Positions 1,336-47,717 of a stretch of DNA of 55,589 nt are shown here, piece after piece. The stretch lies in IMG/VR virus record IMGVR_UViG_3300021090_000026, positions 1-55,589 of that record, one strand, 5' to 3'. Origin of the DNA: a virus. The notes under the pieces were generated by a model. That model did not search any database, was not told where the DNA came from, and saw nothing but the letters and a program-made list of their open reading frames with translations. The translations under genes and the position numbers were made by a program. Position 1 is the first letter of the stretch. The number at the start of each line of letters is the position of its first letter.

Positions 1336-1337
1336 CA

Positions 1338-2276: not shown

Positions 2277-2277
2277 C

Positions 2278-2751: not shown

Positions 2752-3386
2752 TGCTATTTTACGTCTACATAGATTGGACTCTTGAACAGATCCCTAGACG
2801 GTTCTACGTTGGCAAGGGAGATGCTGGGAGGGTGAAGTTTATTCGTCGAAACAAACGGCATCGTGCTATCTCTAAAGCTTACGGGCAACGCAGAGAGGTA
2901 GTATTCTCCACCGATTCTGAAGTTGAAGCTCTACAGATAGAAAAGAAGTTGATCGCAGAATTCAAGACTCGTGGAGATGTCAAAGGTCAGTGGGGAGCGA
3001 ATTTCACCGAGGGTGGGGATGGTGTCTGCGGGAGGCTTCATGACGAGAAGACTAAACGACAGATTAGCCAAAAGATGGCCGGTATACCGAAGTCGGAAGA
3101 AACTCGCATGAAGATGCGAGTTCGTAAAGTCAACAAGCGTGTTGTTCAATATGATTTGAACGGAAAAGAGATCGCAAAGTTTCCTTCTATCAGTGAAACT
3201 ATTCATCAAACAGGAATAAGCTCGATTAGTCTCTGTTGCCGTCGGGTAATTAAGTCTGCTGGAAAATCTGTTTGGAGGTACGAAGGAGATCATTTCGATC
3301 CCAAAACTCCGTATGTCTGTACACCAGAGCATCGACAAAAGCTGAGCAAAGCTAAGTTGAAACAGAAAGAATATCATGGCGTCTAG
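2751..3386 (+). CDS. GIY-YIG homing endonuclease with NUMOD modules (Seg-like)
   Basis: 211 aa. GIY-YIG catalytic domain at residues 1-90: FYVYIDW (GIY equivalent), RRFYVGKGDAGR (YIG equivalent with the conserved Arg), and E62 in SEVEALQIEK as the metal-binding Glu. After it come a NUMOD3-like segment (HDEKTKRQISQKMAG, 98-112), a NUMOD1-like DNA-binding segment (VVQYDLNGKEIAKFPSI, 131-147) and a second short NUMOD3-like tail (TPEHRQKLSKAKL). It starts on the gp25 stop (TGATG) and its end overlaps the gp6-like start by 11 bp, so it sits between two essential genes without breaking them, as Seg enzymes do in T4. Confidence 0.93.
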   Translation: MLFYVYIDWTLEQIPRRFYVGKGDAGRVKFIRRNKRHRAISKAYGQRREVVFSTDSEVEALQIEKKLIAEFKTRGDVKGQWGANFTEGGDGVCGRLHDEKTKRQISQKMAGIPKSEETRMKMRVRKVNKRVVQYDLNGKEIAKFPSISETIHQTGISSISLCCRRVIKSAGKSVWRYEGDHFDPKTPYVCTPEHRQKLSKAKLKQKEYHGV

Positions 3387-5223
3387 CACAAAAAACGATG
3401 CGCTCAAAGCTGTACGACAAAGGCAATACCTCAATAAGGATTTTGACGGGCTTCGAGCTGATCTGATCGAATACGCTCGGACATTCTACGGAGAGAACGT
3501 GAATAACGACTTCTCTGAATCGAGCCTTGGAGGTCTGATGGTGGATATGGCAGCCTATGTTGGCGACGTCATGTCATTCTACCTAGATCATCAATTCACA
3601 GAGATGGATCCGAATCTCGCTGTGGAAACTGACAACATCGAACGGTTGCTTCGGCGTGCAGGAGTTGAGATCACCGGTGCATCGCCAGCCGTGGTTATGC
3701 AATCGTTCTTCGTGGAAGTTCCTGCTGTATCGGTCAACGGAGTGAGCATTCCAGATTCCTCTGCCATTCCGATCATCGATGCTGGAACGATCGTCACTTC
3801 TGATGGCGGTATCGAATACCTTCTTTTAGACAGGATCGATTACACTCTACAAGATGTCGACGGCAACTTGAAGTGCGATATCCAGGTGGGAGATGCTTCA
3901 ACGGACGGAACTCCCAAAAGCTTCATCCTCAAGGGTACGAGCATCTGTATTTCGGGAAGGCAGACCCAAGAAAGCTTCACGATTGGTTCGTTCGTCGCCT
4001 TTAGGGAAATCACGTTGTCCAGCCCGAATGTCACAGAGATCCAATCGGTCTACGATTCCTTGGGAAACAGTTACTACGAGGTCGGAAGTCTGTCGCAGGA
4101 CACAGTTTACTCCAGACGTCCGAATGTGGGTAATGACTCTGATCTGGTTCCTGAACTGCTCGAACTTAAACCAGCTCCCTACAGATACACGAAGGCCACG
4201 AACCTCGACAACCGAACTACGACTCTTGTATTCGGAGGAGGATCGGCTGAGACGATAGAGGATGATGTCATTCCTGATCCGAGTGAATTCGCTCTACCGT
4301 TGTACGGAAGAACGACATTCTCTAGGATTAGCATCGATCCGCAGCAACTCATCACCACAAGGACCCTGGGTGTAGCTTCGTCCAACGTAACCTTGACCAT
4401 TAGCTACAGGTATGGAGGAGGTCTGAACCACAATGCCGAGCCCGGAACCATAAGAAATGTCAAGGCTATGGCCATGACTTTCCCATCGAACGTAACTTCG
4501 GATGTCGCAGCAAGAGTTCGTTCGTCTGCTGAGACCAAGAATGTCAAGAGAGCTTCCGGCGGAGAAGATCCCCCTGATATCGATGAACTCAAGACCCTCA
4601 TTCCGAATGCCAGAAATTCCCAAAGTCGAATCGTCACCAAACCTGACCTCATCTCTCGTATCTATTTGATGCCCGCGAACTTCGGCAGGGTGTTCAGGGC
4701 TGCTACCAGGCAGAATGCTAACAATCCGTTAGCATCTATCCTGTACATCATCAGCAGAGATGAAAATTCTAACCTGATCGTTGCTCCAGATGCTTTGAAG
4801 GATAACCTTCGCAAGTATCTGAACGACTACAGAATGATCTCCGATGCTATCGACATCGTCGATGCTCAGGTCATCAATGTTCGAGTTATCTTCGAAACTA
4901 CCGTCGATAACTCGATGAACAAGAAGATCGTGCTTCAGAATGTCATCCAGAAGATCCAGAAGTACTTCAACATCAAGAACTTCCAGATTGACCAACCTCT
5001 CATCCTTTCTGACCTGCATAACATCATCTACAACAGCATCGGTGTCCTGTCCGTCAACAAGCTGAAGATTGATAACGTCTTCGGAGCTGTCGGGAACAGG
5101 GTTTACAGCGATGCTTTCTTCGACATAGATTCGAACACCACCCGCGGAATGGTCGTTCCATCTCCGGGAGCCATCTTCGAACTCCGGTTTCCCGAGAACG
5201 ATATTGTGGGAAAAGCAGTTTGA
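3376..5223 (+). CDS. Baseplate wedge protein, T4 gp6 / P2 gpJ-like
   Basis: 615 aa, near the 660 of T4 gp6. The N-terminus carries the typical YLNKDFDGLRADLIEYAR (20-37) and FSESSLGGLMVDMAAYVGDV (51-70) region of gp6/J-like proteins, followed by a long beta-rich body and a C-terminal alpha/beta region with RTFSRISID..., LISRIYLMPANFGRV and DALKDNLRKYLNDYRM. In contractile phages this protein dimerises into the ring that holds the wedges together. It is the strongest marker that the virion has a contractile tail. Confidence 0.9.
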   Translation: MASSTKNDALKAVRQRQYLNKDFDGLRADLIEYARTFYGENVNNDFSESSLGGLMVDMAAYVGDVMSFYLDHQFTEMDPNLAVETDNIERLLRRAGVEITGASPAVVMQSFFVEVPAVSVNGVSIPDSSAIPIIDAGTIVTSDGGIEYLLLDRIDYTLQDVDGNLKCDIQVGDASTDGTPKSFILKGTSICISGRQTQESFTIGSFVAFREITLSSPNVTEIQSVYDSLGNSYYEVGSLSQDTVYSRRPNVGNDSDLVPELLELKPAPYRYTKATNLDNRTTTLVFGGGSAETIEDDVIPDPSEFALPLYGRTTFSRISIDPQQLITTRTLGVASSNVTLTISYRYGGGLNHNAEPGTIRNVKAMAMTFPSNVTSDVAARVRSSAETKNVKRASGGEDPPDIDELKTLIPNARNSQSRIVTKPDLISRIYLMPANFGRVFRAATRQNANNPLASILYIISRDENSNLIVAPDALKDNLRKYLNDYRMISDAIDIVDAQVINVRVIFETTVDNSMNKKIVLQNVIQKIQKYFNIKNFQIDQPLILSDLHNIIYNSIGVLSVNKLKIDNVFGAVGNRVYSDAFFDIDSNTTRGMVVPSPGAIFELRFPENDIVGKAV

Positions 5224-10277: not shown

Positions 10278-11066
10278 ATGACTACTATTCCGTTTCTAGA
10301 AGGAAAAAATCCTCTCGACACTCCTGTTAGGACATATGTTTCTAACAGCATGAACACGTCAGCAGTCGATCCTTTTCGTCAAGGAATCGAACTGACGCAG
10401 GACAAACATTTTCAACAGGGAATCGCAAAAATCTGGTCGGGTATGCCAGGGCATGTTGTTGACTTGAACCAATACGGGCAAAGAGACGATGAGATTTTTC
10501 CGAATCAGAGATACTTCGAAGAGATCGCTAAGTTCAATCCTGTGCTCTATTTGACGGACTATTACTCTAACCAGCCCGTCGTCATAGATTCTGCTGTCAA
10601 TACAAACGAACATGGGTTCGACGGAATTATAGAACCCCTGACGATCAGAAAGGTAATAGCGTTCACATCTATCGATGCACCGTTCGAACCACATGGTACG
10701 AAAGCCAACCTAGAAAGTGGAAATTTCAACCTATTCAGAAATGCTGACCAGATCATCAGCAAATACAACTTCAAAGAAGTCTCTCTTGGTGATCATTGGT
10801 ACGAAGACAATGTCGACATGGTCGGTAGTATTCCAACGAACTTGGGATTCTGGCCCACGATTACGACGAGATTGTTAGGATTTGACGACTCTCAAATAAG
10901 GGATGGAGTTATACTTCCTATCTCTGCTAGTTTGGATATGCAGGAAGCTTTGAAAGGCATGCGACCACCGACAGAAAACTATTTGCCCACAAATATTTTC
11001 AGCACCGCGGCTTCCTTATATGATTATCGAGACTGGATCTACCCTGATCCCGTGAAGGTTACGTGA
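10278..11066 (+). CDS. Hypothetical tail/baseplate protein
   Basis: 262 aa; ATG one base after the stop of the LamG protein. Mixed alpha/beta composition with many aromatic residues and Asp (WYEDNVDMVGSIP, YDYRDWIYPDP). No recognised motif. The tight spacing with long structural neighbours on both sides argues for a virion component assembled with them. Confidence 0.65.
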   Translation: MTTIPFLEGKNPLDTPVRTYVSNSMNTSAVDPFRQGIELTQDKHFQQGIAKIWSGMPGHVVDLNQYGQRDDEIFPNQRYFEEIAKFNPVLYLTDYYSNQPVVIDSAVNTNEHGFDGIIEPLTIRKVIAFTSIDAPFEPHGTKANLESGNFNLFRNADQIISKYNFKEVSLGDHWYEDNVDMVGSIPTNLGFWPTITTRLLGFDDSQIRDGVILPISASLDMQEALKGMRPPTENYLPTNIFSTAASLYDYRDWIYPDPVKVT

Positions 11067-11072
11067 GACTAA

Positions 11073-14006
11073 ATGACGCTTAGGGACATTCGTACTAGAA
11101 AGAGATTACATGAACTCGATCGCACGAAAGCGAGCTATCCCACAGTAGCACGTACAGGAGACAAGAACAGAAATGGGAAATTTCCTCTCGTCTTCGACGA
11201 TACCAACACGGTCATTTTCAAATCAAATGCTTCGATCAGCTATCCCACCACATTCGAAACAGGAAGCAAATACCTTACAAGCGACCTACGAAGCGATATC
11301 ACAATTTTACGAACAGGAACTGTCAATCCATCTGCGGTCGATCCGTGGTTGGTAAGATCGTACACGTCAGAACCGCATGCCGCATTCAACGAAAACAAGA
11401 TTTTCGAATATGATATGCAAAATTCTAAGTTCTTTCTTACGGGATCTAAGAATGAAGATGTGGGGATGGGATTTACATCAAATCTTTCTAGCAAAACTAT
11501 AATTCGTTTTGATCTACCCATGGCATCGAGATATACATTGCTAGACACAACGGCTAGTGCGTACTACTACGACGTCTCTAGCCGAACGTTTGTCAGGATT
11601 CCCAATACGAACCAATATTCACCGGGTGGGGGACTCGGATTTAATGGCGACACTGTGAACCACCCACGAAATATTCCGCAACCTAGAGAAGAACTTCTTT
11701 TTGGACCTTTGGGGAAATATAGTTCGAATGTATTGAACATAGGAACGGTGTTGTCGCAAGCGCCTCCACCCCTGCGAGTTACAGAAGTATTCTTCAACAA
11801 TCTTGCTACAACAAATCTGAATCTAAGCACTACAACACCTAGCGCAAGTCACCAAATTTCTCTCAATACGATGATTAACCAACCATTTCTTCTTGAGAAA
11901 TGTGTTATTGAACTTCCTTTTGAAGCGGGACCTGGATGGTTCAACGACAGGACGATGGTTTCTTGTATCGACGAAAATGTCATTGATCCAGACTACTATA
12001 CAGATATCGGAGGTCCTGCGATCACTGTCGGATTATTCAATTCTTTCGGTACGACAAAAGATCTAATCTTGTCAGCGACTATCGTACCGTCTCCGGACAA
12101 CGTAAAAAGTCTAACTCTAAACAACGTCCACAATCCTCCTTTTTCGTCTTCTATCAGTAGAGTCATTAGAACTCCAAGCGGATTTGCTACCTTTTCGACG
12201 CCTGGTGTTGTTGTTAATCGTCCAAATACAACCACCCAGCAATTCAGCGGATCAGTCAAAATAGAAATTGAACCGTTCGCTTCTACGGGAATTAGCACGT
12301 TATTCCATCGATTAGCACCAGGGTTCGTAGAACAACTGTACTTTAATTCTTCGTTTGAAAGAAGCAGCATCTTCATCCAAACAGTATGTGGAAGAAGTAA
12401 AGTGGGTGGACTAGAAAACCTCACTGGAAGAACAATCTTTGGAAGAACAACCTCTACTCCCTCTTTTGTAGAAATTCCAAATCCAAGCCTTAGCCTTCAC
12501 GTCGCTTCAGGAACATCTGGAGTGAATGAAGACATCGTTTATTACACAACAGAAAAACACTCAAAAGCTCCGTACTTGCTATTTCCGCAAGACAAGTTGT
12601 TTCTGACCTTGTCGAAATATCGATCTGCGTTCGTCAGCTCATCCAATTTTTCTAATCCTCCATCTAGATCCCAAGCGACAAATGAACCAAACGCTTTGTA
12701 TTGGTTCTATCATTCGTCATCTCACGATGTCTCAATTCCCACCGGTACCATTCGGCTTACGCTTTACGGCAGCCTTGTACGAGAGAATTCAGAATTCCAT
12801 GACACGTTGAATTCTCGTCTTGATACCGAACAGATCCATGAGATGATTGGATCAGAACCGATAGTAGACGTGTTCGACGTATTCTATTCTACGGAACTTT
12901 CGGGTTCGACAATCGATCGATTCATGACGGGAAGTATTTTAACTAAAACTAGCCTCGCCCGACAAAGGGTGTTTAGTCTTTCTGGTATCGACGATACCAG
13001 AAAGACCTTGGTGAATGGAGAGAAGGGAGTTCCATTCGACGATGTTTCTTTAAGCAAGATGCTTACTCCTCGTGCTGAAATTGCCACAAATTTCAGAAAT
13101 ATCCAGTGTTCATCTTCCGAAGAAAGATTCTGGGATTCCATGGTCCCTAATATCATTGACATTACACGGATCAACAATGGCACGATTCAAGTGAACAGTT
13201 CTTTCGCTTCCACGCAGGTTTCGAACGAGATCAGCCTAGACACAGAATCAGCATCATGCGACAAAGTTTGGACGAAGTCCTTTCCTTTCGAATCGAAGTA
13301 TTCAACCGTTGCCCGAGTTAATCAGGACAAACTTAGATTCAAAATTTCGAATGATACAGTGTTCAGAAGTGTGGAAAACCAATTCACAATTGGTTTGCGT
13401 CCTGGAGTGGTCGGCGGAAGTCCAGCGGGAACTAACTTTTCTGACACATCACCGGCGAATTTTAGGGACCATAAAGACACGACGGGATATTCCACTCTTC
13501 AAACTGGATTGTTGACAACAGATCTGTTCAAAATCTACTTTGGTATTGGTGATCTCAATACAATGTATTCGTCATCGCTAGGGGCAGGATACATCGGCTC
13601 TACTCAACTCGCGTCATATCGAGTGAAAGCTCACGATCAAACTCAAAACTGGGACTATCTCCACAAACCCCTGATCAGAGGATGGAAATATGGTCTTGCT
13701 TCAGGTTTACCCTTATTCACGAAGGCAGTTTTCGCAAGAAACAGATACGGATTCATGAGAGACATGCTTGAACAAAGAATTGATACGAAATTCTTAGCTC
13801 AAGGAATGAACATTAGAGCAACTGACTCTGTCATTAGGGTCCGCTTCGTAAATTCTAGCGGGGACTCCGTTCGTCCAGAAGAAACATTCTCTTCCAATCT
13901 CAGTTTGGAAGTGACTTCATCTTTGCCGTATTTCGACGACGAAGTTAGAAACAGAGAAGAACCCATTGCATTCGCAAGGGCTAACCAAAGCATCGTGGTG
14001 ATCTGA
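11073..14006 (+). CDS. Large beta-rich tail protein of unknown family
   Basis: 977 aa, Ser/Thr/Asn/Phe-rich and almost free of cysteine, as in trimeric fibre or baseplate proteins. N-terminal 40 residues are charged (LRDIRTRKRLHELDRTKAS) and could anchor it; the C-terminal 130 residues (KPLIRGWKYGLASG, FARNRYGFMRDMLEQRID) resemble a conserved structural end module. The stop overlaps the fibre gene start by one base (TGATG), so the two are translationally coupled. No enzymatic motif is seen. Confidence 0.7.
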   Translation: MTLRDIRTRKRLHELDRTKASYPTVARTGDKNRNGKFPLVFDDTNTVIFKSNASISYPTTFETGSKYLTSDLRSDITILRTGTVNPSAVDPWLVRSYTSEPHAAFNENKIFEYDMQNSKFFLTGSKNEDVGMGFTSNLSSKTIIRFDLPMASRYTLLDTTASAYYYDVSSRTFVRIPNTNQYSPGGGLGFNGDTVNHPRNIPQPREELLFGPLGKYSSNVLNIGTVLSQAPPPLRVTEVFFNNLATTNLNLSTTTPSASHQISLNTMINQPFLLEKCVIELPFEAGPGWFNDRTMVSCIDENVIDPDYYTDIGGPAITVGLFNSFGTTKDLILSATIVPSPDNVKSLTLNNVHNPPFSSSISRVIRTPSGFATFSTPGVVVNRPNTTTQQFSGSVKIEIEPFASTGISTLFHRLAPGFVEQLYFNSSFERSSIFIQTVCGRSKVGGLENLTGRTIFGRTTSTPSFVEIPNPSLSLHVASGTSGVNEDIVYYTTEKHSKAPYLLFPQDKLFLTLSKYRSAFVSSSNFSNPPSRSQATNEPNALYWFYHSSSHDVSIPTGTIRLTLYGSLVRENSEFHDTLNSRLDTEQIHEMIGSEPIVDVFDVFYSTELSGSTIDRFMTGSILTKTSLARQRVFSLSGIDDTRKTLVNGEKGVPFDDVSLSKMLTPRAEIATNFRNIQCSSSEERFWDSMVPNIIDITRINNGTIQVNSSFASTQVSNEISLDTESASCDKVWTKSFPFESKYSTVARVNQDKLRFKISNDTVFRSVENQFTIGLRPGVVGGSPAGTNFSDTSPANFRDHKDTTGYSTLQTGLLTTDLFKIYFGIGDLNTMYSSSLGAGYIGSTQLASYRVKAHDQTQNWDYLHKPLIRGWKYGLASGLPLFTKAVFARNRYGFMRDMLEQRIDTKFLAQGMNIRATDSVIRVRFVNSSGDSVRPEETFSSNLSLEVTSSLPYFDDEVRNREEPIAFARANQSIVVI

Positions 14007-17653: not shown

Positions 17654-18702
17654 CTTTATACCTATGCGCCTTTTCTAAGAGATCACCCACCGCCGACTGG
17701 AACAGCGAACTCCGAGCCATCTCTTCGATCTGGGACTCTGTCAGATTTGCCCCTGTCGCCTGAGAGAGCTCTCGGGCCATCTTTCTCATGCCCCGCAAGA
17801 GCCAGTTCCTCGCTGAGGAATAGTTCATTTTCCAACCCCGGAGAGCTACTGTCTCCGTAATCCTCTTGAACTCCATCCCATCTCGGTCCGTCACAGTCGA
17901 ATAAGTCTGTCTCTTCTTCACTTTCATCCACGTCTCCAAGTAAGTTATCATCTGTCATTGGATAAGATGCTGAATCGCTGGGGTCATCGGAAAGACCATA
18001 TCGCAACCTCAGAACGACGCTCTCCTTCGGAGAAAGCTCTTCTTCCATGACCTTCCGAACGATACCCACCAGCTGTTTCTCAGAGATGCAATCGATGGGG
18101 TTCGATCCGAGTGACATGTCCGCAAGCACATCCATCCATCGTTGCTCGTACTCTCCTCCCGATGAAGAACCTGACTTTCTGGGAGCATCGAGAGAAACGA
18201 TGGTTCCACTGGCGTCGTTTGCCGCCTTGACAAGGCGGGTAGAAGCACCGGTGGCGCTGGACAGTTCATCCAGGGTCATGCTATCGTCCTTATCCATCGC
18301 ATTCTTCATCTTCTTGCAAAGACCGACGATGTGAGCGGGCATTCTGACGATTCTCTTGTTCTTCGTAAGATGCTGTCCGATGGCCTGCCTGATCCACCAG
18401 ATAGCGTAGGTGCTGAACCGGAATCCTTTCTTCCAGTCGAAGCGTTCCACGGCTCTCATGAGGCCGATGTTACCTTCTTGGATGATGTCGTCCATGGGGA
18501 TTCCGCGTGTTGCGTACCCCTTGGCGACCGAAATGACCAATCGAAGGTTAGAGTTGATAATCTTCTTGCGTGCGGTGGAAGAACCTTCTTCCATCTCTTG
18601 AAATAGCTTTGTGCTGTCCGCATGAGCGAGAACAGGCCATTTCTTGAGCTCACGCATATACTTCGAGAGAAGGCTCTCGCTTTCAGCGTCTAAGAAACCC
18701 AT
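17553..18702 (-). CDS. RpoD-like sigma factor with region 4.2 in the +1 frame
   Basis: The first frame (18702 to stop 17683, 339 aa) contains region 1.2 (LLSKYMRELKKWPVLAHAD, 11-29), region 2 (NLRLVISVAKGYATRGIPMD; IQEGNIGLMRAVERFDW; FRFSTYAIWWIRQAIGQHL), region 3 (142-170) and region 4.1 (LSPKESVVLRLRYGLSDD, 223-240). After an acidic stretch it runs into noise. Region 4.2 is found in the +1 frame (open 17951-17553): ITETVALRGWKMNYSSARN and WLLRGMRKMAREL, where the -35-contacting helix-turn-helix is expected. That frame's own ATG (17951) has no ribosome-binding site. The options are a programmed +1 shift between about 17951 and 17890, two separate polypeptides, or a one-base sequence error. 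It would direct host RNA polymerase to phage promoters. Confidence 0.8.
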
Positions 18703-30381: not shown

Positions 30382-30783
30382 TCACTCAGAAGCACCGTCG
30401 GGGAAACACATGCTGCACCCTCCTCCACATCGAGTGCCGGTCTCTTGGTTGTAGAGAGCGTGCTTCAAGGGATCCTGCTCGTTATCGGTGATCGCGCTGT
30501 CTAAAAGAGACATGAAGTACTTCTTCACACGCTCGAGGCTCATGCATTCTGTATCGATGAACAGGCCTGCCGGAGTCTGGATAAGTGACACCTCTCCGAA
30601 CCCGAATCCTGGTTCGCTGAATGACAGCACGACGACGGCCTTCTTGGGCACTTCGAGGTCACATCCCAGAACAACTTCCCCTTCGGCCTCGGGAAGCTCG
30701 GATTGCATCTCGCACGAGGCGTGCCGAATTTCTATCTTCGTGGGCAGACCCTGGAGTACCTCGACAAATTTATCATCGTTCAT
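30382..30783 (-). CDS. Array-related protein with C-terminal cysteine cluster
   Basis: 133 aa from ATG 30783. VPKKAVVVLSFSEPGFGFGE (45-64) and SLIQTPAGLFIDTE (66-79) match the core of the 28093 protein. A unique tail ends RCGGGCSMCFPDG (118-130), a possible metal site. Confidence 0.6.
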   Translation of the reverse strand: MNDDKFVEVLQGLPTKIEIRHASCEMQSELPEAEGEVVLGCDLEVPKKAVVVLSFSEPGFGFGEVSLIQTPAGLFIDTECMSLERVKKYFMSLLDSAITDNEQDPLKHALYNQETGTRCGGGCSMCFPDGASE

Positions 30784-30797
30784 ATCGGTATCGTCTC

Positions 30798-31106
30798 CTA
30801 CAGGTACATTTCGTCCCACTGAGTACCATCCGTCGCCGCGAGCTTATTGATGATGTGAAACATGGTCACAATGCCGGATGGGGTCAGAAGAATCCAGCAA
30901 TTGTATGCATTGTGGATTGATTGTTGAAACGGGTCGGTGAGAAATACGCAGATGGATTGAGCATCGTCTGGGCCTAAGCATCCCACCATGTCGGACAACG
31001 GATTTCCGTTCTCATCGTGGAAGACATCGTCCAAGAGATAGGCGACATCTCCCTTACGACCGGACCCATAAGATTTTCGCTGCGTAGTTTCTAGTCCTGT
31101 TCGCAT
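30798..31106 (-). CDS. Array protein, type A
   Basis: 102 aa. SGRKGDVAYLLDDVF (15-29), QSICVFLTDPF (50-60, the LTDP signature) and NCWILLTPSGIVTMFHI (69-85). Overlaps the next member by 16 bp. Confidence 0.7.
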   Translation of the reverse strand: MRTGLETTQRKSYGSGRKGDVAYLLDDVFHDENGNPLSDMVGCLGPDDAQSICVFLTDPFQQSIHNAYNCWILLTPSGIVTMFHIINKLAATDGTQWDEMYL

Positions 31107-31342
31107 TCTTTGATATCTCTCCCTTCTATCCAGACGATGCCCTTCGAAGAAAGGCAGAGGTGATCTCCGTATTCGGGATTCCTCAAACCTAGATCTATGA
31201 AAAATTCTCCCGGGAGAAGAATCACCGAAAGACCGTCGTGGTAATCTTCCATTACGTAGGTGTGGACAGGATCATCTGAGACCTGAATCACACGTCCGAC
31301 CCTCCACGGGAGGGAGAGCGAATTCACCGGCAAGGGGTACAT
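31091..31342 (-). CDS. Array protein, type A
   Basis: 83 aa from ATG 31342. PWRVGRVIQVSDD (12-24), GLSVILLPGEF (37-47), YGDHLCLSSKGIVWIEGRDI (58-77). Confidence 0.65.
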   Translation of the reverse strand: MYPLPVNSLSLPWRVGRVIQVSDDPVHTYVMEDYHDGLSVILLPGEFFIDLGLRNPEYGDHLCLSSKGIVWIEGRDIKECEQD

Positions 31343-31695
31343 TTCTCCTCCCAATCATTCTCAGAAAAGACGAAATATCCCTTACGCATGTACCTCGTCC
31401 AGATCATCGTTTCGCTGGCAGCGTCGACGAATATGAAAAAATCGAGATCCTTCGGGTCGTAGAGGACCTTCTTATTCGCACGGGACTTACGGGTCCTGAA
31501 GACCAATTTTTCATCCTGCGCGCCACGAGTCGTCTTCACCTGGATCTTCACCCAACGTGTTCCTCGTTTCCTGATGGCAACGTCGTAGGGGAGGGTGTTG
31601 TCACGTTTAGTAACATCATCAACTTCCCAACCACGGCCCTTGCAGAAATTCTCTACGAGTTTTTGACCCTTCTCCGCCACAGCATTGTTCCGCAT
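31324..31695 (-). CDS. PD-(D/E)XK nuclease-fold protein
   Basis: 123 aa. Core EKGQKLVENFCKGRGWEV (8-25), PYDVAIRK (Asp38) and WVKIQVKTTRG (Gln52, Lys54), with Q in place of E as in the restriction-endonuclease-like QVKT families. The second half (KDLDFFIFVD, TMIWTRYMRKGYFV) fits the remaining strands and helix. Could be a Holliday-junction or host-DNA nuclease, or an inactive DNA-binding derivative. Confidence 0.75.
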   Translation of the reverse strand: MRNNAVAEKGQKLVENFCKGRGWEVDDVTKRDNTLPYDVAIRKRGTRWVKIQVKTTRGAQDEKLVFRTRKSRANKKVLYDPKDLDFFIFVDAASETMIWTRYMRKGYFVFSENDWEEKCTPCR

Positions 31696-40207: not shown

Positions 40208-40531
40208 TCAGATCTTCGGGAGCTGTGCTTTGGCACTCGTGGCGAAGTGGATCACTTTGTCCAACCAACGAAGAGCTTCTGGAGTGTTTGCGTTAGCGAC
40301 GGCTGCCTGGACCTTCTGCGCAGCATCGGCCGCCATGTTGATATCGGCCTTGAATTTATTCAGGGCGCCCGGAGCAGGGAGCCCGGCGGAAGCTGGAGGA
40401 GGGGTGCGCCCGGAAGCTCCGGGTGGAAGCGGCGGAGGACCGCCCATTCCCTGCGAAATCTCTTCTTCGAGGAGCTCGATGACGAGCCTGCGGAGGTCGG
40501 AGATACCCAATTCACTCTTCTTCGTCTTCAT
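40208..40531 (-). CDS. MK-leader protein with proline-rich linker
   Basis: 107 aa. N-terminal helix KKSELGISDLRRLVIELLEE (4-23), then a Gly/Pro/Ala linker (GGPPPLPPGASGRTPPPASA), then a helical C-terminus (DINMAADAAQKVQAAVANAN). The leader helix is shared with three unrelated proteins. Looks like a small structural or packaged protein. Confidence 0.65.
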   Translation of the reverse strand: MKTKKSELGISDLRRLVIELLEEEISQGMGGPPPLPPGASGRTPPPASAGLPAPGALNKFKADINMAADAAQKVQAAVANANTPEALRWLDKVIHFATSAKAQLPKI

Positions 40532-40582
40532 GGTGCTACGGATAAGTAGTAGTTCTCATCTCGATGCTAAACGAAAAATCAG

Positions 40583-41500
40583 TCATTCGAATAAGCCGGG
40601 ATCGACAACGACAAAGTCGCCGGTTGCCCGTCGGACCATGAAATTACCGGTGTGGAGATCGTCCCACATCATGCCCGCCTCGTCAAGAGCATGCAAAAAC
40701 TCAACGAACTCCCGAACCTTGCGAGACGGATGTTTACCAGCAAGGCTCTTACGACCAAGAGTCATGGGAACGATCTCCCGTCGAATGGCTTGGGTGATCT
40801 CGTTTTCGAGATACGATCCAATGCCTCTCATGTTCGTGAGAGCTCTATCGAGAAGGGACTTGAGAGCCATGAGCGTGAGCTTTTCGGCAGCAGCTTTCTC
40901 TAGAATAGGCACAACGACACCAGTGTAGACCTTACGAATTTGGTCGTCTGAGATTGATCCCATCCGAGAAGCGGAGGCGATGATGCTCTCCTGCGCATCG
41001 AAGTCCTGCAAAAACATATCGATTCGACCTGGTGGAAGTTTCCACTCGTATTTGGTGTATTGGAGATCGTGTTCGAGTGCCGCGGGCATCGGGTCTAAGA
41101 GCTCCATCAGAGTTCCGTAGATCATGCTCAAACCTTCGTGGAATTGAACTTCGGTTTCGAAGGTGTCAATGAGCTCCGGAAAGTGTTTAGCGTACTTTGG
41201 GTCCATCATGCGGGCGAAGTCGACGAAATCGATCATGGCTTTCTGTTCGTTTTGTTCGACAGAGTACCGGGCGACGCAATGGCGATCCTTGTACAGGACT
41301 TCCTTGACCGTGTTATATGATCCCGATCCCACAGTTGAGTTGCCACGTTCGCCGCTAGGGATCGGAAATATTCCGATGTGAGCCAAGGCAACCTCGACAG
41401 CGTCTTTAGAACCGGTACCCCAACGGTGGAGGGTAGACTCCTCTCCCTGCTCAAGGAGTGATCGAACTAGAACCTTCAGTTCGGTGAGATGTAACTTCAC
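40583..41500 (-). CDS. MK-leader protein-kinase-like enzyme
   Basis: 305 aa from a GTG (41500). Leader KLHLTELKVLVRSLLEQ (2-18). Kinase-fold features: glycine loop VGSGSYNTVKEVLYK (57-71), RYSVEQNEQKAM, and the catalytic region MMWDDLHTGNFMVRR (277-291, D and N of the catalytic loop) followed by DFVVVDPGLFE (295-305), where DPG replaces DFG and the protein ends. The usual VAIK lysine is unclear (CVARYS). Could phosphorylate host protein or be a pseudokinase carried in the virion. Confidence 0.7.
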   Translation of the reverse strand: MKLHLTELKVLVRSLLEQGEESTLHRWGTGSKDAVEVALAHIGIFPIPSGERGNSTVGSGSYNTVKEVLYKDRHCVARYSVEQNEQKAMIDFVDFARMMDPKYAKHFPELIDTFETEVQFHEGLSMIYGTLMELLDPMPAALEHDLQYTKYEWKLPPGRIDMFLQDFDAQESIIASASRMGSISDDQIRKVYTGVVVPILEKAAAEKLTLMALKSLLDRALTNMRGIGSYLENEITQAIRREIVPMTLGRKSLAGKHPSRKVREFVEFLHALDEAGMMWDDLHTGNFMVRRATGDFVVVDPGLFE

Positions 41501-41536
41501 GAGTTAAATAGGGGCGGGGCGGGCCCCGTTCTTCCG

Positions 41537-41842
41537 TTACAACGCTTCTACCCCATCGAACGGGGCCAGGGCCGGGGCCTGAAGTATCTGACAGCCGGAA
41601 CAGTCCATTGAACAGAGTCCGAGAGAGCTGATGACCAAGACCTCCCGGTACGGCTCGTTCTTCACGGGAAATTCGATCTCTGGCTCCCAAGGATCGGACA
41701 CCACCACAGCGACACCACTGGGAACAATTTCTATGCACCGGTGATTGCACCGGAGATGAACCTCTAGGATGTGAGCCATTGTGTAAGGTTTGAAGCGAAC
41801 GACGTCACCGGGTCTAAGGTCTTTCAACACATCTCCTGACAC
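41537..41842 (-). CDS. Array protein, type A, longer
   Basis: 101 aa. DLRPGDVVRFKPY (8-20), IVPSGVAVVVSDPWEP (39-54), REVLVISSLGLCSMDCSGC (66-84). The C-terminal CxxxCSGC is unique and may bind metal. Confidence 0.7.
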   Translation of the reverse strand: MSGDVLKDLRPGDVVRFKPYTMAHILEVHLRCNHRCIEIVPSGVAVVVSDPWEPEIEFPVKNEPYREVLVISSLGLCSMDCSGCQILQAPALAPFDGVEAL

Positions 41843-42038
41843 AAGTAGAACGCAACCATCCGATTCCCAGATGCGTCAGAACGAGGACGTAGGGATCGGA
41901 GACCCACAGCTCCTCACCGGTTACCAGGATGATCATCGCACCGTCCCTGGGAAACAATCGACCGAGGTACTTTCCGCCGAACCACAACGACACGGACTCT
42001 TGCAGAAAAACAACGTCGCCCTTTACAAGATCTTTCAC
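41814..42038 (-). CDS. Array protein, type A
   Basis: 74 aa. DLVKGDVVFLQE (3-14), FPRDGAMIILVTGEE (29-43), YVLVLTHLGIGWLRSTCV (50-67). Confidence 0.72.
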   Translation of the reverse strand: MKDLVKGDVVFLQESVSLWFGGKYLGRLFPRDGAMIILVTGEELWVSDPYVLVLTHLGIGWLRSTCVRRCVERP

Positions 42039-42238
42039 TTCAGTTCCTCGAAACGATCATCCATCCATGTGGAGGGCAACGATCCGCAGCCATGTTTAGA
42101 AGAGAGCATAGTGTAATACTTTTCCGACGACAGGATCACCAACACCGAACCCACCGCCTGCCGGATCCAGCAACCTTGAAACTCGATGAACACGCTTGAC
42201 TTCGTTCGAACGATGTCCCCCGAGAAGAATTTTTTCAT
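42035..42238 (-). CDS. Array protein, type A, short
   Basis: 67 aa. KKFFSGDIVRTKSSVF (2-17), QAVGSVLVILSSEK (27-40), YYTMLSSKHGCGSLPST (41-57). The last block ends in GCGSL rather than GVGWI. Confidence 0.7.
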   Translation of the reverse strand: MKKFFSGDIVRTKSSVFIEFQGCWIRQAVGSVLVILSSEKYYTMLSSKHGCGSLPSTWMDDRFEELK

Positions 42239-42435
42239 AGCCTTTTGAAACGATGAAACCGCCCACCCTTGCCTTTGGCAAGTTCAACGGCGATCTTGTG
42301 GAGCTTCTTCCGGTTGCGGAAGACCTTACCTTCTCGGAAGTAAAATCCATCCCCCAGGCAGACCATGTAGCAAGATCTTTCCGGATCGTTGGAGTCGTAC
42401 CTGATGATGTCACCGACCTTAAGTTCTATCCTCAC
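42235..42435 (-). CDS. Array protein, type B
   Basis: 66 aa from GTG 42435, overlapping the upstream stop as GTGA; a longer ATG-like frame would overlap by 73 bp. IELKVGDIIRYDSND (3-17), CYMVCLGDGFYFREGKVF (22-39), then a very basic C-terminus (KGKGGRFHRFKRL) that could touch nucleic acid. Confidence 0.65.
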   Translation of the reverse strand: MRIELKVGDIIRYDSNDPERSCYMVCLGDGFYFREGKVFRNRKKLHKIAVELAKGKGGRFHRFKRL

Positions 42436-42671
42436 CGCAGGATCCGAATCGGTGTGACGTTGCGCATGTTTTTCGTTTCGAACGTGCTTCGAATGACGCG
42501 GCAATTCTCCATGAGGGTGAAGACGATCTTGGTGTCAACATCGACAACTTCGACCTGCAGGCACGTGAGAATGAAGTTCCTTCGAGCGTGGGCAGGAAGA
42601 TGGCTGAACATCTCGTGGGTGTAATCGGGCCCGTAGCTGTCTCCCGGTTCGAGATCCATGTAAGTGCTCAT
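42432..42671 (-). CDS. Array protein, type B-like
   Basis: 79 aa from ATG 42671. DLEPGDSYGPDYTHE (6-20), NFILTCLQVEVVDVDTKIVF (32-51), CRVIRSTFETKN (57-68). Confidence 0.55.
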   Translation of the reverse strand: MSTYMDLEPGDSYGPDYTHEMFSHLPAHARRNFILTCLQVEVVDVDTKIVFTLMENCRVIRSTFETKNMRNVTPIRILR

Positions 42672-42904
42672 AGAACAGTGACCCCACGTCCAAGGGAGAC
42701 GGAAAGCCGACAGACTCCCACGCCGGAGAGCACGTGGTAGAAGGTGACGTCGCAGAGATCTTCGGCCAGGATTACTACTATCGCACCGATGGGCAGAACG
42801 ACCCATCCATCATCGTTCGATGGGTCGAGAAAAAGCTCATTTTTTACGTTCACGGCCCGAACGGTGTTCAAGCACAGGACGGTGCCGGGGGTAAGATCCA
42901 TCAT
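42668..42904 (-). CDS. Array protein, type A
   Basis: 78 aa from ATG 42904 (ATGA). DLTPGTVLCLN (3-13), GWVVLPIGAIVVILAEDL (33-50), FYHVLSGVGVCRLSVSL (55-71). A longer upstream frame is a shadow of the next gene. Confidence 0.7.
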   Translation of the reverse strand: MMDLTPGTVLCLNTVRAVNVKNELFLDPSNDDGWVVLPIGAIVVILAEDLCDVTFYHVLSGVGVCRLSVSLGRGVTVL

Positions 42905-43110
42905 AAGAGCGTCGCTCCCTCTAGGTTGTCCACGATCCCGACGAGGCACTTTCCGATGGAAGGAGCGAGGGCCTCGTAGACATTCCCAAAACCCTGTCTT
43001 TCTCCCAGGATCAGCACGACGCTTCCGACCGGGATCACGGTCCAGCCCCGCTCGCTCCACCCTGTGAGATTGGTCTCCAGGCGGACGACATCTCCGGAGA
43101 CCAATCTCAC
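42901..43110 (-). CDS. Array protein, type A, canonical
   Basis: 69 aa. RLVSGDVVRLETN (2-14), WTVIPVGSVVLILGER (23-38), YEALAPSIGKCLVGIVDNL (45-63). Sister of 42668 (IPVGSVVLIL / LPIGAIVVIL). Confidence 0.72.
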   Translation of the reverse strand: MRLVSGDVVRLETNLTGWSERGWTVIPVGSVVLILGERQGFGNVYEALAPSIGKCLVGIVDNLEGATLL

Positions 43111-43418
43111 AGGTACGTGTATCTGACAGCCGCGACTCCGATCATGAGCACGAGAAGGCCCAGTCCGACGAGGGGCAGGGGGACGACGACCGGTTCCGGA
43201 GCGGGGTGCTTGGCGACGAACGCTGCGAAGATGATCTCGACCATCCCACGCGCCGGGAAGATCGATCCGTTGTCCAGATCTTCCAGCTCCTCCCGGGTGA
43301 AATCCGCGCGCATGAGGCAGGCAGTCTCCTCCTTCGTGAGCTCTCGTCCGAGCTTACGTTCCAGGACGAAGCACATCCCACCACGGTACATCTGGAAGCT
43401 CATCATCTTTCTATGCAT
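43107..43418 (-). CDS. Tail-anchored membrane protein
   Basis: 103 aa from ATG 43418; the longer frame upstream is noise from the next gene. Soluble helical part (MCFVLERKLGRELTKEE; FTREELEDLDNGSIFPA) and one C-terminal membrane span (VVVPLPLVGLGLLVLMIGV) with a five-residue tail after it. Confidence 0.65.
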   Translation of the reverse strand: MHRKMMSFQMYRGGMCFVLERKLGRELTKEETACLMRADFTREELEDLDNGSIFPARGMVEIIFAAFVAKHPAPEPVVVPLPLVGLGLLVLMIGVAAVRYTYL

Positions 43419-43423
43419 GATGT

Positions 43424-43798
43424 TTACCAGCTCACCTTGAGCACGCCGGTGGGGGTGTACTCGACAGTGTACTTGGAGCCCAAGATTTTTTGAATGACTC
43501 TCATAATGCACTCGAACGCCAGCTTCTGGTGGGTCGGATCGTTGTTGATCCACGGGCTGATGTACTTCGAAGGATCCATCGTGAACGATGTCTGCTTCGC
43601 ACCGATCGCGACCGCGGTGGGGATCACGTCGTGCTTCAGGTACAGAACCTGAGCCTCCACCACCTTCGCGCACATCAACGAGTGTTCGAAGTCTTCGACG
43701 AAGGTTTCGTGCTTCACACTTTCCAAAATGTCCTGCTTTTCCTTGCAACGCAGCTGGTGATCGGCGATGGCCTCGGGAGTCGTCATTGTGATCTTCAT
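43424..43798 (-). CDS. Hypothetical alpha/beta protein
   Basis: 124 aa from ATG 43798, seven bases after AAGGA. TPEAIADHQLRCKEKQDILE, HSLMCAKVVEAQVLYLKH, then QKLAFECIMRVIQKILGSKY and a C-terminal strand pair. First gene of the promoter at 43832-43860. Confidence 0.65.
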   Translation of the reverse strand: MKITMTTPEAIADHQLRCKEKQDILESVKHETFVEDFEHSLMCAKVVEAQVLYLKHDVIPTAVAIGAKQTSFTMDPSKYISPWINNDPTHQKLAFECIMRVIQKILGSKYTVEYTPTGVLKVSW

Positions 43799-43831
43799 CT
43801 TCATTCCTTTCGATAACACGTTACCATTTTA

Positions 43832-43860
43832 ATTCTACCATCCGACCCATAAGGGTTCAA
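43832..43860 (-). promoter_or_regulatory. Phage promoter
   Basis: Minus strand -35 TTGAAC, 17 bp, -10 TAGAAT (TGG extension). About 27 nt of leader to the 43798 ATG. Confidence 0.83.
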
Positions 43861-44126
43861 CGCACTGAAGGGAGCTTCTGAATTCCAGCTTCGATGAGAG
43901 CGACACGCGAAGGTGCGGCGAGCACCTCCAGATCGGTCCCGACGTGGAGGCACCCGCGACAGAGCTGTCCGTCGTCTCCAATGAAGGAGATCGTAATCAA
44001 ATCACGGTGGAACTCTTCCATCTTCGAATAGAGGAAGATCTTCCAACCGATGCTGAAGGGAGTGATTCCACCGTGGCGCCTGTAGATCATACCAAACTTG
44101 AGATCCGTCGGTTTGATGAGTTGCAA
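43857..44126 (-). CDS. Array-like protein at the right edge
   Basis: 89 aa from TTG 44126, seven bases after AGGA (TTG 44132 is closer but badly spaced). DLKFGMIYRRHGG (8-20), GWKIFLYSKM (27-36), LITISFIGDDGQLCRGCL (43-60). The strand-turn-strand ends resemble types B and C. Confidence 0.5.
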   Translation of the reverse strand: MQLIKPTDLKFGMIYRRHGGITPFSIGWKIFLYSKMEEFHRDLITISFIGDDGQLCRGCLHVGTDLEVLAAPSRVALIEAGIQKLPSVR

Positions 44127-44143
44127 AGTCAAATCCTATTTTC

Positions 44144-44172
44144 ATTTTACCACATGGGAAACGTGGGTTCAA
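44144..44172 (-). promoter_or_regulatory. Phage promoter
   Basis: Minus strand -35 TTGAAC, 17 bp, extended -10 TGGTAAAAT; short leader with AGGA before the 44126 TTG. The 44173-44287 stretch upstream shows no convincing gene. Confidence 0.88.
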
Positions 44173-44287
44173 CGATGGAGTTTTGATTTTTGCCCCCGCT
44201 TCGCGTGACGGAGCTAAGAGCGTTCTGAACGCTGCGGCGAGCTCGAAGTCGTCGTATCGACGATGAGCTCGATGACGAGGTACACCT

Positions 44288-44368
44288 TCAATTCTCGGCA
44301 CCCAGAGATTCGATCCGGTCGGCCAGGTTGTGGAAGTCGCTCACCCAATCGAGAAAATCAAGACCCAT
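44288..44368 (-). CDS. Possible 26-aa micropeptide
   Basis: GLDFLDWVSDFHNLADRIES then LGAEN; ATG overlaps the end of the upstream gene by 11 bp. Amphipath-like acidic helix. No ribosome-binding site, so tentative. Confidence 0.3.
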   Translation of the reverse strand: MGLDFLDWVSDFHNLADRIESLGAEN

Positions 44369-44666
44369 CGATCACACTTTCGGGTCCTTTCACCTGCTCG
44401 CACAACCCCCACTCGGCGTTCTCCTCCAGGAGGTCCTTGAAGGCGGTTTTGGACTCGCCGAGGATCTTATGCATGGAGCGGGCGACGTTCACGTCCTTGA
44501 AAAGGTAGCTGGGATGGGTCGGTGCGAACATCATGATGTTGCCCTTCCTGTCCTCGATGGAGATTCCGATGGCGGCCTTGCCGCGGGCTTCGAGCAGTTC
44601 GAACTGCCAGTTTGCGAAGTTCTCCTTGGCCAACTCTGCGAATCGATATTTTTTCTGGGGTGTCAT
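44358..44666 (-). CDS. Hypothetical alpha/beta protein
   Basis: 102 aa from ATG 44666. KKYRFAELAKENFANWQFEL, GKAAIGISIEDRKGNIMMF, MHKILGESKTAFKDLLEE. No family recognised. ATGA with the 44932 gene's end. Confidence 0.6.
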   Translation of the reverse strand: MTPQKKYRFAELAKENFANWQFELLEARGKAAIGISIEDRKGNIMMFAPTHPSYLFKDVNVARSMHKILGESKTAFKDLLEENAEWGLCEQVKGPESVIDGS

Positions 44667-44932
44667 TCGAAATTCTTTAGAAGTTCTCTCGCCTGGTCCA
44701 GACGTCCCTGGACCTCGCAGTCCTGATCGTCGGCTTCGCTGAGCTCCATGATCGCCGGCCTTATCTTTCTCAGAAGCTCCTTGAGTCCATCTATTTCTTG
44801 ACCGCAATATCGAAGGGCGGCATCGTAGACGTCATTGCAAGTGGGGCAGATCCTCCGCAGGAACCCGTCGAACTTGCGGTGCTTCAGCTCTTCCAGGGTG
44901 ACCCTGCTGCAGCGATCGCAGTGCTGGTACAT
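44663..44932 (-). CDS. Zinc-ribbon protein with coiled coil
   Basis: 89 aa from ATG 44932. CDRCSRVTLEELKHRK (5-20) and RRICPTCNDVYDAALRYCGQ (26-45) make a CxxC-CxxC ribbon; residues 45-89 are helical and acidic. Confidence 0.65.
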   Translation of the reverse strand: MYQHCDRCSRVTLEELKHRKFDGFLRRICPTCNDVYDAALRYCGQEIDGLKELLRKIRPAIMELSEADDQDCEVQGRLDQARELLKNFE

Positions 44933-44937
44933 GGGAC

Positions 44938-45150
44938 TCACGGTCTGCCCATGATCTCCAGCACCTTGATCTCCGACATTCCCGCCGCTTCCAGCAGAGC
45001 CTTCACGCGGTAGAACTCCGCCAGGCTTCCTCGGTTGATCCCGTCGTGGAAGCAATCCCGACAGTTCTTGCACGCCTCTTCCACGGCTCCGTTCGCCAGA
45101 TGGACCTGTCCCACCGTCCGATTGCTCTTGCACCTGTAGCATGTACTCAT
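44938..45150 (-). CDS. Small zinc-ribbon protein
   Basis: 70 aa from ATG 45150. TCYRCKSNRTV (3-13) and EACKNCRDCF (24-33) form the metal site; then a helix EFYRVKALLEAAGMSEIKVL. Sister of the 44663 protein in design. Confidence 0.65.
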   Translation of the reverse strand: MSTCYRCKSNRTVGQVHLANGAVEEACKNCRDCFHDGINRGSLAEFYRVKALLEAAGMSEIKVLEIMGRP

Positions 45151-45208
45151 GGTACATCGTACAATATTCCTTGGCTGGGATGCACTGGAAGTGGTTCTAA
45201 AGGTGCGC

Positions 45209-45634
45209 TTAGAGCTCTTCCCACCACCATCGTAGCGAACCAGCGCTACGATCCAAAAGGAAGTTGACAGTGTAGTAGCCACCTTCGGTGGATTGGGACC
45301 AGCACAGTGAACCGGGTCCTGGCCGCGGTTCGATCATTGGATGGTCGTCCGTGACGAATTTCTCCGCGACGGTCCAGTCCTTGTTTGGATCTTCGACGGA
45401 GCTGCTGGTCACTTCACGGTCGAGGATTCTTTCGACGGCATCGAGTTCACTCGGAGACAGATGGACCTCGTTTTTTGGCACCAGCTCATCCAAGAGATTC
45501 ATCCGGATCGGGAGGAGCCCGACGATCCTTTTCACGATCATCCTAACCTCCCTTTCGTCGTCTTCTAGTCTAACACCCTCGTCCAACAAAGCGATTCGGA
45601 CGAGTCGTCTAAGTTCCGTCAGTGCTAACTTCAT
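45209..45634 (-). CDS. MK-leader hypothetical protein
   Basis: 141 aa from ATG 45634. Leader KLALTELRRLVRIALLDEG (2-20), helical middle (REVRMIVKRIVGLLPIRM; LSPSELDAVERILDREV), then SLCWSQSTEGGYYTVNFLLD with a C-terminal aromatic end (WWWEEL). No enzymatic motif. Confidence 0.65.
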   Translation of the reverse strand: MKLALTELRRLVRIALLDEGVRLEDDEREVRMIVKRIVGLLPIRMNLLDELVPKNEVHLSPSELDAVERILDREVTSSSVEDPNKDWTVAEKFVTDDHPMIEPRPGPGSLCWSQSTEGGYYTVNFLLDRSAGSLRWWWEEL

Positions 45635-45754
45635 TACGGAACATAAGTAGGACTCGAAACACAGAAAATTTCCCGAGAGATTTTTAAAAAGAGGCCGGAG
45701 GTCCATCGTTCCATGGTACTCGGAATCACTTTGTATTCGAATTTGTTGCTGACG

Positions 45755-46279
45755 TCATTCGAAGTCCATCAGGACGAAACGACCATCATGCGTCCAACCC
45801 CATTCTTGATGGGTTTCCAGGGAGTGGGTGTCAAGTCTGTTTGCACGCACGAAAACCTTGAGGTCCTCTATGAAGCTTTTCTGTTCGGGCGTGATATCGA
45901 ATTCTCCCACCGTCTCGTACCAGTCGCGTCCGTCCAAGAACTCTCCGAGGGCTCTCTCGCTCACACCCACGATTCGAAAAGCTTCTTCGGGCAAGACAGC
46001 TTTCAATCTCTCCACGAGGATCCACCAGAATTCTGGATGGTGGTCCAGCACTCTCGGAACGAATCGTCCATTCGCGGGATTCGAACCCACCCTCCACTCC
46101 GTCCTGTTGGGTTGGACGTCGTCCGTGACTATCTTAATCACTGTCGAATTGGAGACCGCGAACGCCGCCCGGGAGTTTCCTTCTCCAAGGTAGACGAAGC
46201 TACGTTCGCAGTAGTCCCATACCTCATCCAAAGTTGATAAGTTCTTGAGCGTTGCGACGATCTTGTGTTCGATCTTCAT
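45755..46279 (-). CDS. Protein-kinase-like protein
   Basis: 174 aa from ATG 46279. VYLGEGNSRAAFAV (29-42, glycine loop) and STVIKIVTDD (44-53, VxIK lysine), WWILVERLK in the hinge, and a terminal ETHQEWGWTHDGRFVLMDFE (155-174) where the catalytic and metal loops would be; it ends at DFE like the 40583 protein. It lacks the EL-type leader but begins MKIEHKIVATLKNL. Truncated kinase or pseudokinase. Confidence 0.6.
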   Translation of the reverse strand: MKIEHKIVATLKNLSTLDEVWDYCERSFVYLGEGNSRAAFAVSNSTVIKIVTDDVQPNRTEWRVGSNPANGRFVPRVLDHHPEFWWILVERLKAVLPEEAFRIVGVSERALGEFLDGRDWYETVGEFDITPEQKSFIEDLKVFVRANRLDTHSLETHQEWGWTHDGRFVLMDFE

Positions 46280-46326
46280 CTTCGGATAAGTAGGGTGAAA
46301 CGGCCCGAAAAAATTCCCGAGAGATT

Positions 46327-46500
46327 CTAGAAACCCAACGGGTTGTAGCCCACGAGCCCGCACCGGGAACATGCCTTGATCGTTGGTCTCCCTTCGATAC
46401 CAATGTCATGCTCGTCGTAGAAAAGGATCCAATCGTGCTTGCAGAGGCCGAAACAGGCCCGAATTTTTTCGGAGAGAATCGGGACGAGGGCCTTTGGCAA
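46327..46500 (-). CDS. Small Cys/His protein
   Basis: 57 aa from TTG 46500; no better start exists because TGA lies four codons upstream. ACFGLCKHDWILFYDEHD (15-32) and KACSRCGLVGY (42-52) form a C-x3-C..H...CxxC set. Fills the gap between two MK-leader genes. Confidence 0.45.
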   Translation of the reverse strand: MPKALVPILSEKIRACFGLCKHDWILFYDEHDIGIEGRPTIKACSRCGLVGYNPLGF

Positions 46501-46526
46501 GGATAATTGTCAGGTTTGGGAGAGAA

Positions 46527-47342
46527 TCAATCCACCACCAGCACGCAGATCATCTTGCCACGAACGAAGGATTCAAAAGCCGTGCGAGCTCCCGAGACGG
46601 CTTTTTCAATCTCCGCGAGAACCGCGTCGAACCTCCCAAATTCGGAATGAACGAAGCGAAACCCTCGAGAATCAAGAATCGCCTGCGTCATGATTTCCGC
46701 CACGGTGTCTCTCCCGAATTCATCGTGTGGCAACGCACCGGTCCGCGCGCTCTTGAACGTGAACGATTTCGAGAAATCGGGCGCGAGCTCCATGAGACTG
46801 CCAAGCCCGTCCATGGCGGCGACCTTGAGGTCGTGCATGAGACTCGTCACTCTTTCAAAGATCTCCGCGACCTGGTTCGCACCGCGAACATTCCCGATCG
46901 GAGAATCGAAGATCGCATGGACGAACATCCAAGGTGTCGGTAGAAGACCTTTTTCCATCCGGAATGCGTACGGACAAAAGATCGTTCCACCTGAAGACAA
47001 AAAGTGAGAAAGCTCGGAGGTGAGCGGGGACGGCAGGCCCAGGTCTTCGAGCGATGCTCCGGCGGTCTCCGGGTCGTACGACCCGACGCGCGCTCCGGGA
47101 CTTCCGAGGCTAGGAGATCCCCAGATAGGAACGATCCGAATGGGGACGGACAGATTGCCGTACAACCGCGTAGCTTGCTTGAAAAATTCGGGAGAAGCGA
47201 AGAAGCGCTCGGCCTGCTTCTGGTGCTTCGGTCGAGTGGTATCCTGAACAACGATGTCAGAAACTCCGTGTTCGGGTGTCATGGGAGACTCTGCCAAGCA
47301 TTTCCTGACGATGGACCTGAGTTCGAGTATACGCAGTTTCAT
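46527..47342 (-). CDS. MK-leader protein of unknown family
   Basis: 271 aa, ATG start. Leader KLRILELRSIVRKCLAES (2-19). The rest is globular alpha/beta: RFFASPEFFKQATRLYGN, GTIFCPYAFRMEKGLLPTPW, NQVAEIFERVTSLMHDLKV, and a C-terminal GARTAFESFVRGKMICVLVV. No motif recognised. Confidence 0.65.
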   Translation of the reverse strand: MKLRILELRSIVRKCLAESPMTPEHGVSDIVVQDTTRPKHQKQAERFFASPEFFKQATRLYGNLSVPIRIVPIWGSPSLGSPGARVGSYDPETAGASLEDLGLPSPLTSELSHFLSSGGTIFCPYAFRMEKGLLPTPWMFVHAIFDSPIGNVRGANQVAEIFERVTSLMHDLKVAAMDGLGSLMELAPDFSKSFTFKSARTGALPHDEFGRDTVAEIMTQAILDSRGFRFVHSEFGRFDAVLAEIEKAVSGARTAFESFVRGKMICVLVVD

Positions 47343-47717
47343 TTTTGGGGGCCGAATCTAAGTAGAAAAATTCCCGAGAGATTTTTGGGTTTTGGTCCGT
47401 GCAACCTTAATTGTAAGCTCCGGGAAACGCGAATTCAACGGTGTGAATCAGACGAGCAAACGAAAAGTGATCGAATTTTTCTCGAGAATTCACCGCGGGG
47501 CGTTGCGCCCGTGAACCCCCCGAAAAGGGCCCCATAAAGTAGCCTAGGCGGCCCCACCCATTTTTCAGGGGCCCTTTTTTAGGCCCCACTTTGAATCGAA
47601 CTTCGTTTTTGCCGGGCGGAACCGGTTTCGCCACGGGGTTATAATTGGTTTTACAAGGTGGGGAGGGGACGAAAAACCCCAACCCCAAACCACCCACCAA
47701 CCCGGAGTTTCACCACC
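47343..47717. other. Divergent spacer between minus and plus genes
   Basis: 375 bp without a convincing gene. It holds one copy of the AAATCTCTCGGGAATTTTT element (47366-47386), a GC-rich GGGCCCC/GGGGCCC inverted repeat followed by TTTTTT (about 47529-47580), and a candidate plus-strand promoter with TATAAT at 47640-47645 (poor -35 CGGAAC, 17 bp). Confidence 0.5.

Follow-up and report, generated by a model that had tools for sequence, protein, structure and literature searches.

Why do phage proteins with unrelated bodies begin with one and the same short helix? The question arises in an IMG/VR virus record of 55,589 bp, a fragment from a virus of bacteria that we analysed over its whole length and call the window. 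A myovirus tail and baseplate module lies at 1–15 kb, and the gp6-like baseplate wedge protein (3376..5223, plus strand) was used for placing the phage among T4-related and huge phages. By this protein, the nearest named records are LR756508, a 484-kb uncultured phage, Flavobacterium phage immuto and Microcystis phage Mel-JY01, all at 31–32% identity, and the IMG/VR contig G060 is a closer relative with a wedge 55% identical. Another IMG/VR contig, G002, is 100% identical to the window across 20,586 bp and adds 12.6 kb upstream, giving a 68-kb combined sequence in which we counted tags. Two regions of G002 beside the tail module (850–3629 and 7837–10271) hold sugar-nucleotide and glycosyltransferase-like genes by sequence appearance, and the minus strand of the window at 36–44 kb has a long run of small look-alike ORFs of about 60–105 aa, several of which open with a VGDVVR...VLI-type start and possibly form a repeated small-protein family.

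A preliminary description of this DNA had reported a common N-terminal helix in four proteins. The four ORFs are present, all on the minus strand, with starts at 40531 (MKTKKSELGISDLRRLVIELLEEE), 41500 (MKLHLTELKVLVRSLLEQ, from a GTG start), 45634 (MKLALTELRRLVRIALLDE) and 47342 (MKLRILELRSIVRKCLAES), and they share the form M[KR]x(n)[ED]L[RK]x[LIV]Vx(3)L; the peptides quoted earlier were right in sequence but were listed in an order that does not match the coordinates. Among 1,597 candidate starts in the window and the 12.6-kb G002 extension, the strict pattern ^M.{2,10}[ED]L[RK].[LIV][VI][RK]..[LIVC] occurs at five, against a shuffle mean of 0.023 (maximum 1 in 300 shuffles). Two of the five (G002 6952, MRISLQELRLVVRKALVEA; G002 5065, MKKSVTILELRQLVKSIIVEL) lie in the extension, outside the sequence from which the motif was first read, and therefore constitute an out-of-sample success of the motif search at protein starts that had been proposed. 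The 40531 protein fits a looser pattern only, which brings the total to six tagged proteins. Across all ORFs of 60 aa or more (46,017 residues), the loose core turns up only 7 times, and six proteins start with it. As a helix, the tag is of unexceptional amphipathicity.

Past the tag, the six bodies have no mutual match at E<0.2, in agreement with the earlier statement that they are otherwise unrelated. The tag stands at the extreme N-terminus of these proteins, as in the capsid-targeting sequence (CTS) of T4 type. An origin of the shared start by chance or by homology of complete proteins, the latter having been named in advance as one part of the grounds for giving up the idea, is extremely improbable: elsewhere, some bodies do form small families (22 of about 118 have two to four members), but shuffles yield 0.02 starts and the bodies here are unrelated, and we rejected both.

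The first tagged protein (46527..47342, 271 aa) begins with MKLRILELRSIVRKCLAE (47289..47342), which ends at an LAE site. The second (45209..45634, 141 aa) begins with MKLALTELRRLVRIALLDE (45578..45634) and an LDE site; its frame is also open to an upstream ATG at 45706, and the internal start is favoured because a TACTTAT element lies 15–16 nt before it. The third (40583..41500, 305 aa) has the tag MKLHLTELKVLVRSLLE (41450..41500) with an LLE site, and a kinase PHROG match in its C-terminal part (E 1.2e-5). The fourth (40208..40531, 107 aa) has the tag MKTKKSELGISDLRRLVIELLE (40466..40531), with an LLE or LEE site, followed by a Pro/Gly-rich linker and a C-terminal helical segment. Searches of Pfam, NCBIfam and PHROG with the four window proteins returned nothing of note apart from the kinase PHROG, and no close relatives of the 47342 and 41500 proteins were found among viral contigs and named phages. 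Structure predictions were poor (pLDDT 39 for the kinase-like protein and 46 for the 47342 family) and unfit for a fold search. We considered the Pro-rich body of the 40531 protein as a homologue of a Pro-rich tagged protein in contig G058; the two are alike by eye, and the likeness is not significant. Between the first two tagged genes lies a further kinase-like gene (45755..46279, minus strand, 174 aa) without a tag. Its G058 homologue (30599–31492) is likewise untagged at the N-terminus, and a late segment of that protein, LREFVNEVVQKC, resembles the tag.

The preliminary description had asked for a cleavage site after the helix, and one of consistent form is there: [LI]xE closes all six tags in nearly the same register (LAE, LDE, LLE, LVE, IVE and LLE/LEE). 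In shuffles of the residues after the core the mean was 0.39, and six were never obtained in 20,000. The T4 form of the prohead-protease cleavage motif is [LI]xE, and the terminal triplet of the tags looks like this signature. Cleavage by T4 gp21 and its relatives takes place on the C-terminal side of a glutamate that follows a short motif (PMC9026906; PMC5694885). The [AS]-x-E form of phiKZ and SPN3US is not what we see, the six in-register sites all being [LI]xE and the capsid sites described below [LIV]xE. Elsewhere, [LIV]xE occurs at +9 to +14 in 77 of 125 tagged proteins, against 12 in shuffles, and is mostly followed by G, A or S; about 38% of the tagged proteins in other phages have no such site at these positions, which counts against a targeting reading.

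The tagged genes also share an upstream element. TA[CTG]TTA lies about 10–23 nt before all six of them and before 2 of 91 others (p=3e-8), and the extended form TA[CTG]TTA[TAG] is rare in the window phage sequence, with 15 occurrences where equal base use would give about 75. In the window the elements, all on the minus strand, are CTACTTA at 47359..47365, 23 nt before the 47342 start and a late-promoter candidate, CTACTTA at 45644..45650 (16 nt before 45634), CTATTTA at 41505..41511 (11 nt before 41500) and CTACTTA at 40543..40549 (18 nt before 40531). The two untagged exceptions are the 46279 kinase-like neighbour (element at 46293–46287) and the next gene behind that of a gp55-like late sigma factor (G002 10548–11297; phrog_234, E 2.4e-5), a gene that starts just after TACTTAT. 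A second protein with sigma-70 region 2 is encoded at window 17683–18702. Three of the TACTTA elements (47365–47359, 46293–46287 and 45650–45644, minus strand) have in common a block AATCTCTCGGGAA[AT]TTTT about 15–45 nt upstream. The TA[CTG]TTA element looks like a late promoter, and in contigs G058 and G057 it is a general element, since many untagged genes there follow one.

The conserved piece could in principle be a DNA or RNA signal for transcription or translation at the start codon that is translated incidentally. The conserved upstream element and the want of a clear Shine-Dalgarno sequence would suit such a signal, but the conserved residues are written with many synonymous codons (six Leu and six Arg codons, for example, in the wider set), and the upstream element is separate from the tag and also precedes untagged genes. 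We regard this explanation as very improbable, the codon variety in particular disfavouring it.

Other large phages have similar starts, as the preliminary description had stated. A degenerate DNA pattern for the start M[KR]xxExxLRx[IV][IV][RK]EE, run against IMG/VR, matched 104 stretches that gave 181 tagged N-termini, 147 of them distinct, with the consensus MKLTESKLRKIIKEEIQKLNE up to the candidate cut; the reversed control pattern matched no record. The 144 usable bodies fall into about 118 families, of which 96 are singletons, and at the strictness used the maximum was 20 tagged genes per contig, reached in two contigs that are probably the same phage. Very few of 99 tagged proteins scanned against Pfam have a match (six families, five of them through one member each), and searches with the tag alignment or short consensus peptides gave no confirmed match. 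A profile built from LR756508 tags alone picks up the window proteins weakly, so the two types of tag are divergent; immuto and Mel-JY01 have few tags or none, those of immuto being starts of the form MKKSEL... or MKKSQLR... at 102250, 102836 and 113144. The two types appear to be bridged by contig G012, which encodes two homologues of the 47342 body (E 6e-15 and 5e-8) that both start with the other variant (MAIRLTESRLRRIVREEIERSLDE and MRIAEGQLRKIIREELSRIDE). For the G002 5065 protein, G060 encodes a weak homologue (E 6e-5 in a two-sequence comparison across tag and body).

Several features of phages with such tags point towards the head. Of the 31 motif contigs that reach 50 kb, not all of them independent phages, 16 encode the T4-type prohead protease PF03420 (Peptidase_S77), against 2 of 21 control contigs of the same size class drawn with a neutral DNA word (p=0.0025); the 15 motif contigs in which it was not found are all possibly incomplete. 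This gp21-like protease is present in LR756508, immuto and Mel-JY01, and no prohead protease, capsid or scaffold gene was found in the window or the G002 extension, both of which are fragments. In LR756508 (156.5–158.1 kb), G015 and G061 the protease profile match is split within one open frame of about 573–576 aa, as though an intein or a similar insert lay inside it.

In several phages, among them LR756508 and G009, tagged genes are the immediate neighbours of the protease gene, and in most the small proteins beside the protease open with a helix of the form xxLKxIVKECLxEIxxEG. When a profile of these protease-neighbour proteins, none of them from the window phage, was run against its ORFs, the top three were 40531, 47342 and G002 5065, with 0.07–0.27 chance hits expected per ORF; the reverse search, with a window-derived profile, finds protease-neighbour proteins in G056 and G058. 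No named phage with the same core protein was found. The capsid carries a matching site: in ten major capsid proteins from tagged phages, [LIV]xE followed by A, S, V or a similar residue stands just before the conserved core. By analogy, this position would correspond to the cut in T4 gp23, which loses a 65-residue propeptide (PMC9026906).

These associations bear on two further explanations, both of which accept the helix as a protein signal. In one, it is an assembly adaptor for another late structure, such as the tail, the baseplate or a membrane-bound assembly site, and the bodies are not head cargo. A late-type promoter element also stands on a tail-module gene, and the genes just before the baseplate wedge gene in Mel-JY01 and immuto begin with similar helices; yet the closest helices sit on proteins beside the prohead protease, and an [LI]xE site with a counterpart in the capsid is unexpected for a tail adaptor, which leaves an adaptor role unlikely. 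Two adjacent ORFs of Mel-JY01 (60276–60926 and 60923–61105) begin MIKLKSLL[QK]EIISDRVWHLTT, which may be one more T4-type start that targets the head. In the other explanation, the helix acts within the infected cell, where it takes proteins to a target of the host or of the phage (the membrane, host RNA polymerase or a phage compartment), and virions play no part. The kinase-like body would suit a host-directed role; however, the cleavage-type site, the protease association and the late promoter element are then left unexplained, and we consider this quite improbable.

The explanation that we hold to be probable is that the shared helix is a prohead-targeting propeptide which works like the T4 CTS, and that the bodies are packaged and probably ejected. 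This is what the preliminary description had proposed with reference to T4, and the proposal is now supported, though not proven, by the [LI]xE site, the helix of the protease neighbours, the protease enrichment, the capsid site, the promoter-like element and the spread of the tag over about 118 families. These sequence-level lines are partly independent of one another. Counting against the proposal are the lack of a protease gene in the window, which is a fragment, the motif contigs in which no protease was found, the tagged proteins elsewhere without the cleavage-type site, the divergence between the tag types, the scarcity of tags in immuto and Mel-JY01, and the ordinary amphipathicity of the helix. 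A model based on analogy with T4 would run as follows. The tagged proteins would be made late from a common promoter type, and the tag would dock each of them on the core or scaffold of the prohead, probably because it imitates the helix with which the phage's own core proteins begin. A T4-type prohead protease (Peptidase_S77), which we infer for the window phage as well, would cut after the terminal [LI]xE, the body would stay inside the head after the cut and so be present in the virion, and it would probably be ejected with the DNA.

We lean somewhat towards a broader reading as well, in which many different effectors are loaded into each head by means of a single exchangeable N-terminal label, used by a large group of T4-related and huge phages that has been little described. 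The label would be derived from prohead core proteins or mimic them, and its cargo here would include a kinase-like protein. The proteins that a phage injects are at work before the first of its genes is expressed, and factors for host takeover and against host defences are among them, but in uncultured phages they can be recognised only with great difficulty. Should the tag be a packaging label, it would point to a set of candidate injected proteins, nearly all without a known domain, and would provide a means of bringing proteins of choice into the heads of large phages; sequence alone could then suffice for reading the injected proteome of uncultured phages.

Two known systems invite comparison. 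SPN3US and phiKZ have ejection proteins in the head with N-terminal propeptides that are cut after x-x-Glu; gp53 and gp54, for example, have an identical 15-residue start, and short propeptides exist (gp45 and gp225, 20 and 24 residues; PMC10052503). However, cleavage there follows an A-x-E or S-x-E motif, the majority of the propeptides are longer than 100 residues, and no tag common to dozens of unrelated proteins is described in the literature searched. PHROG 7338, a family of 87 residues for which no role in targeting is described, matches the tag consensus weakly at positions 5–25 (E 0.006–0.13). Among the matches listed from a literature with few subscription papers, we found no description of the tag motif, which is weak evidence of absence; no virion proteomics of immuto or of any other of these phages was found in the material searched. 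The closer comparison is with the CTS of the T4 internal proteins IPI, IPII and IPIII and the Alt propeptide, cut by gp21. IPIII, too, starts with MK. In T4, a CTS of 10 residues is enough to package foreign proteins (PMC9026906; for CTS biology see also PMC5694885). Like it, the tag is short, lies at the very N-terminus of divergent proteins, is followed by hydrophobic-x-Glu and has variants in other phages with a Peptidase_S77 prohead protease. Unlike it, the tag is about 17–22 residues long, has the consensus [ED]LRxLV or TESKLRKIIKEE, resembles the phage's own core proteins, and is carried by up to 20 genes per contig rather than by a handful of internal proteins. Given these differences, and with no description found, we set the tag apart from the T4 CTS; the latter serves as its functional model, and what appears to be new here is the consensus, the length and the number of cargo genes.
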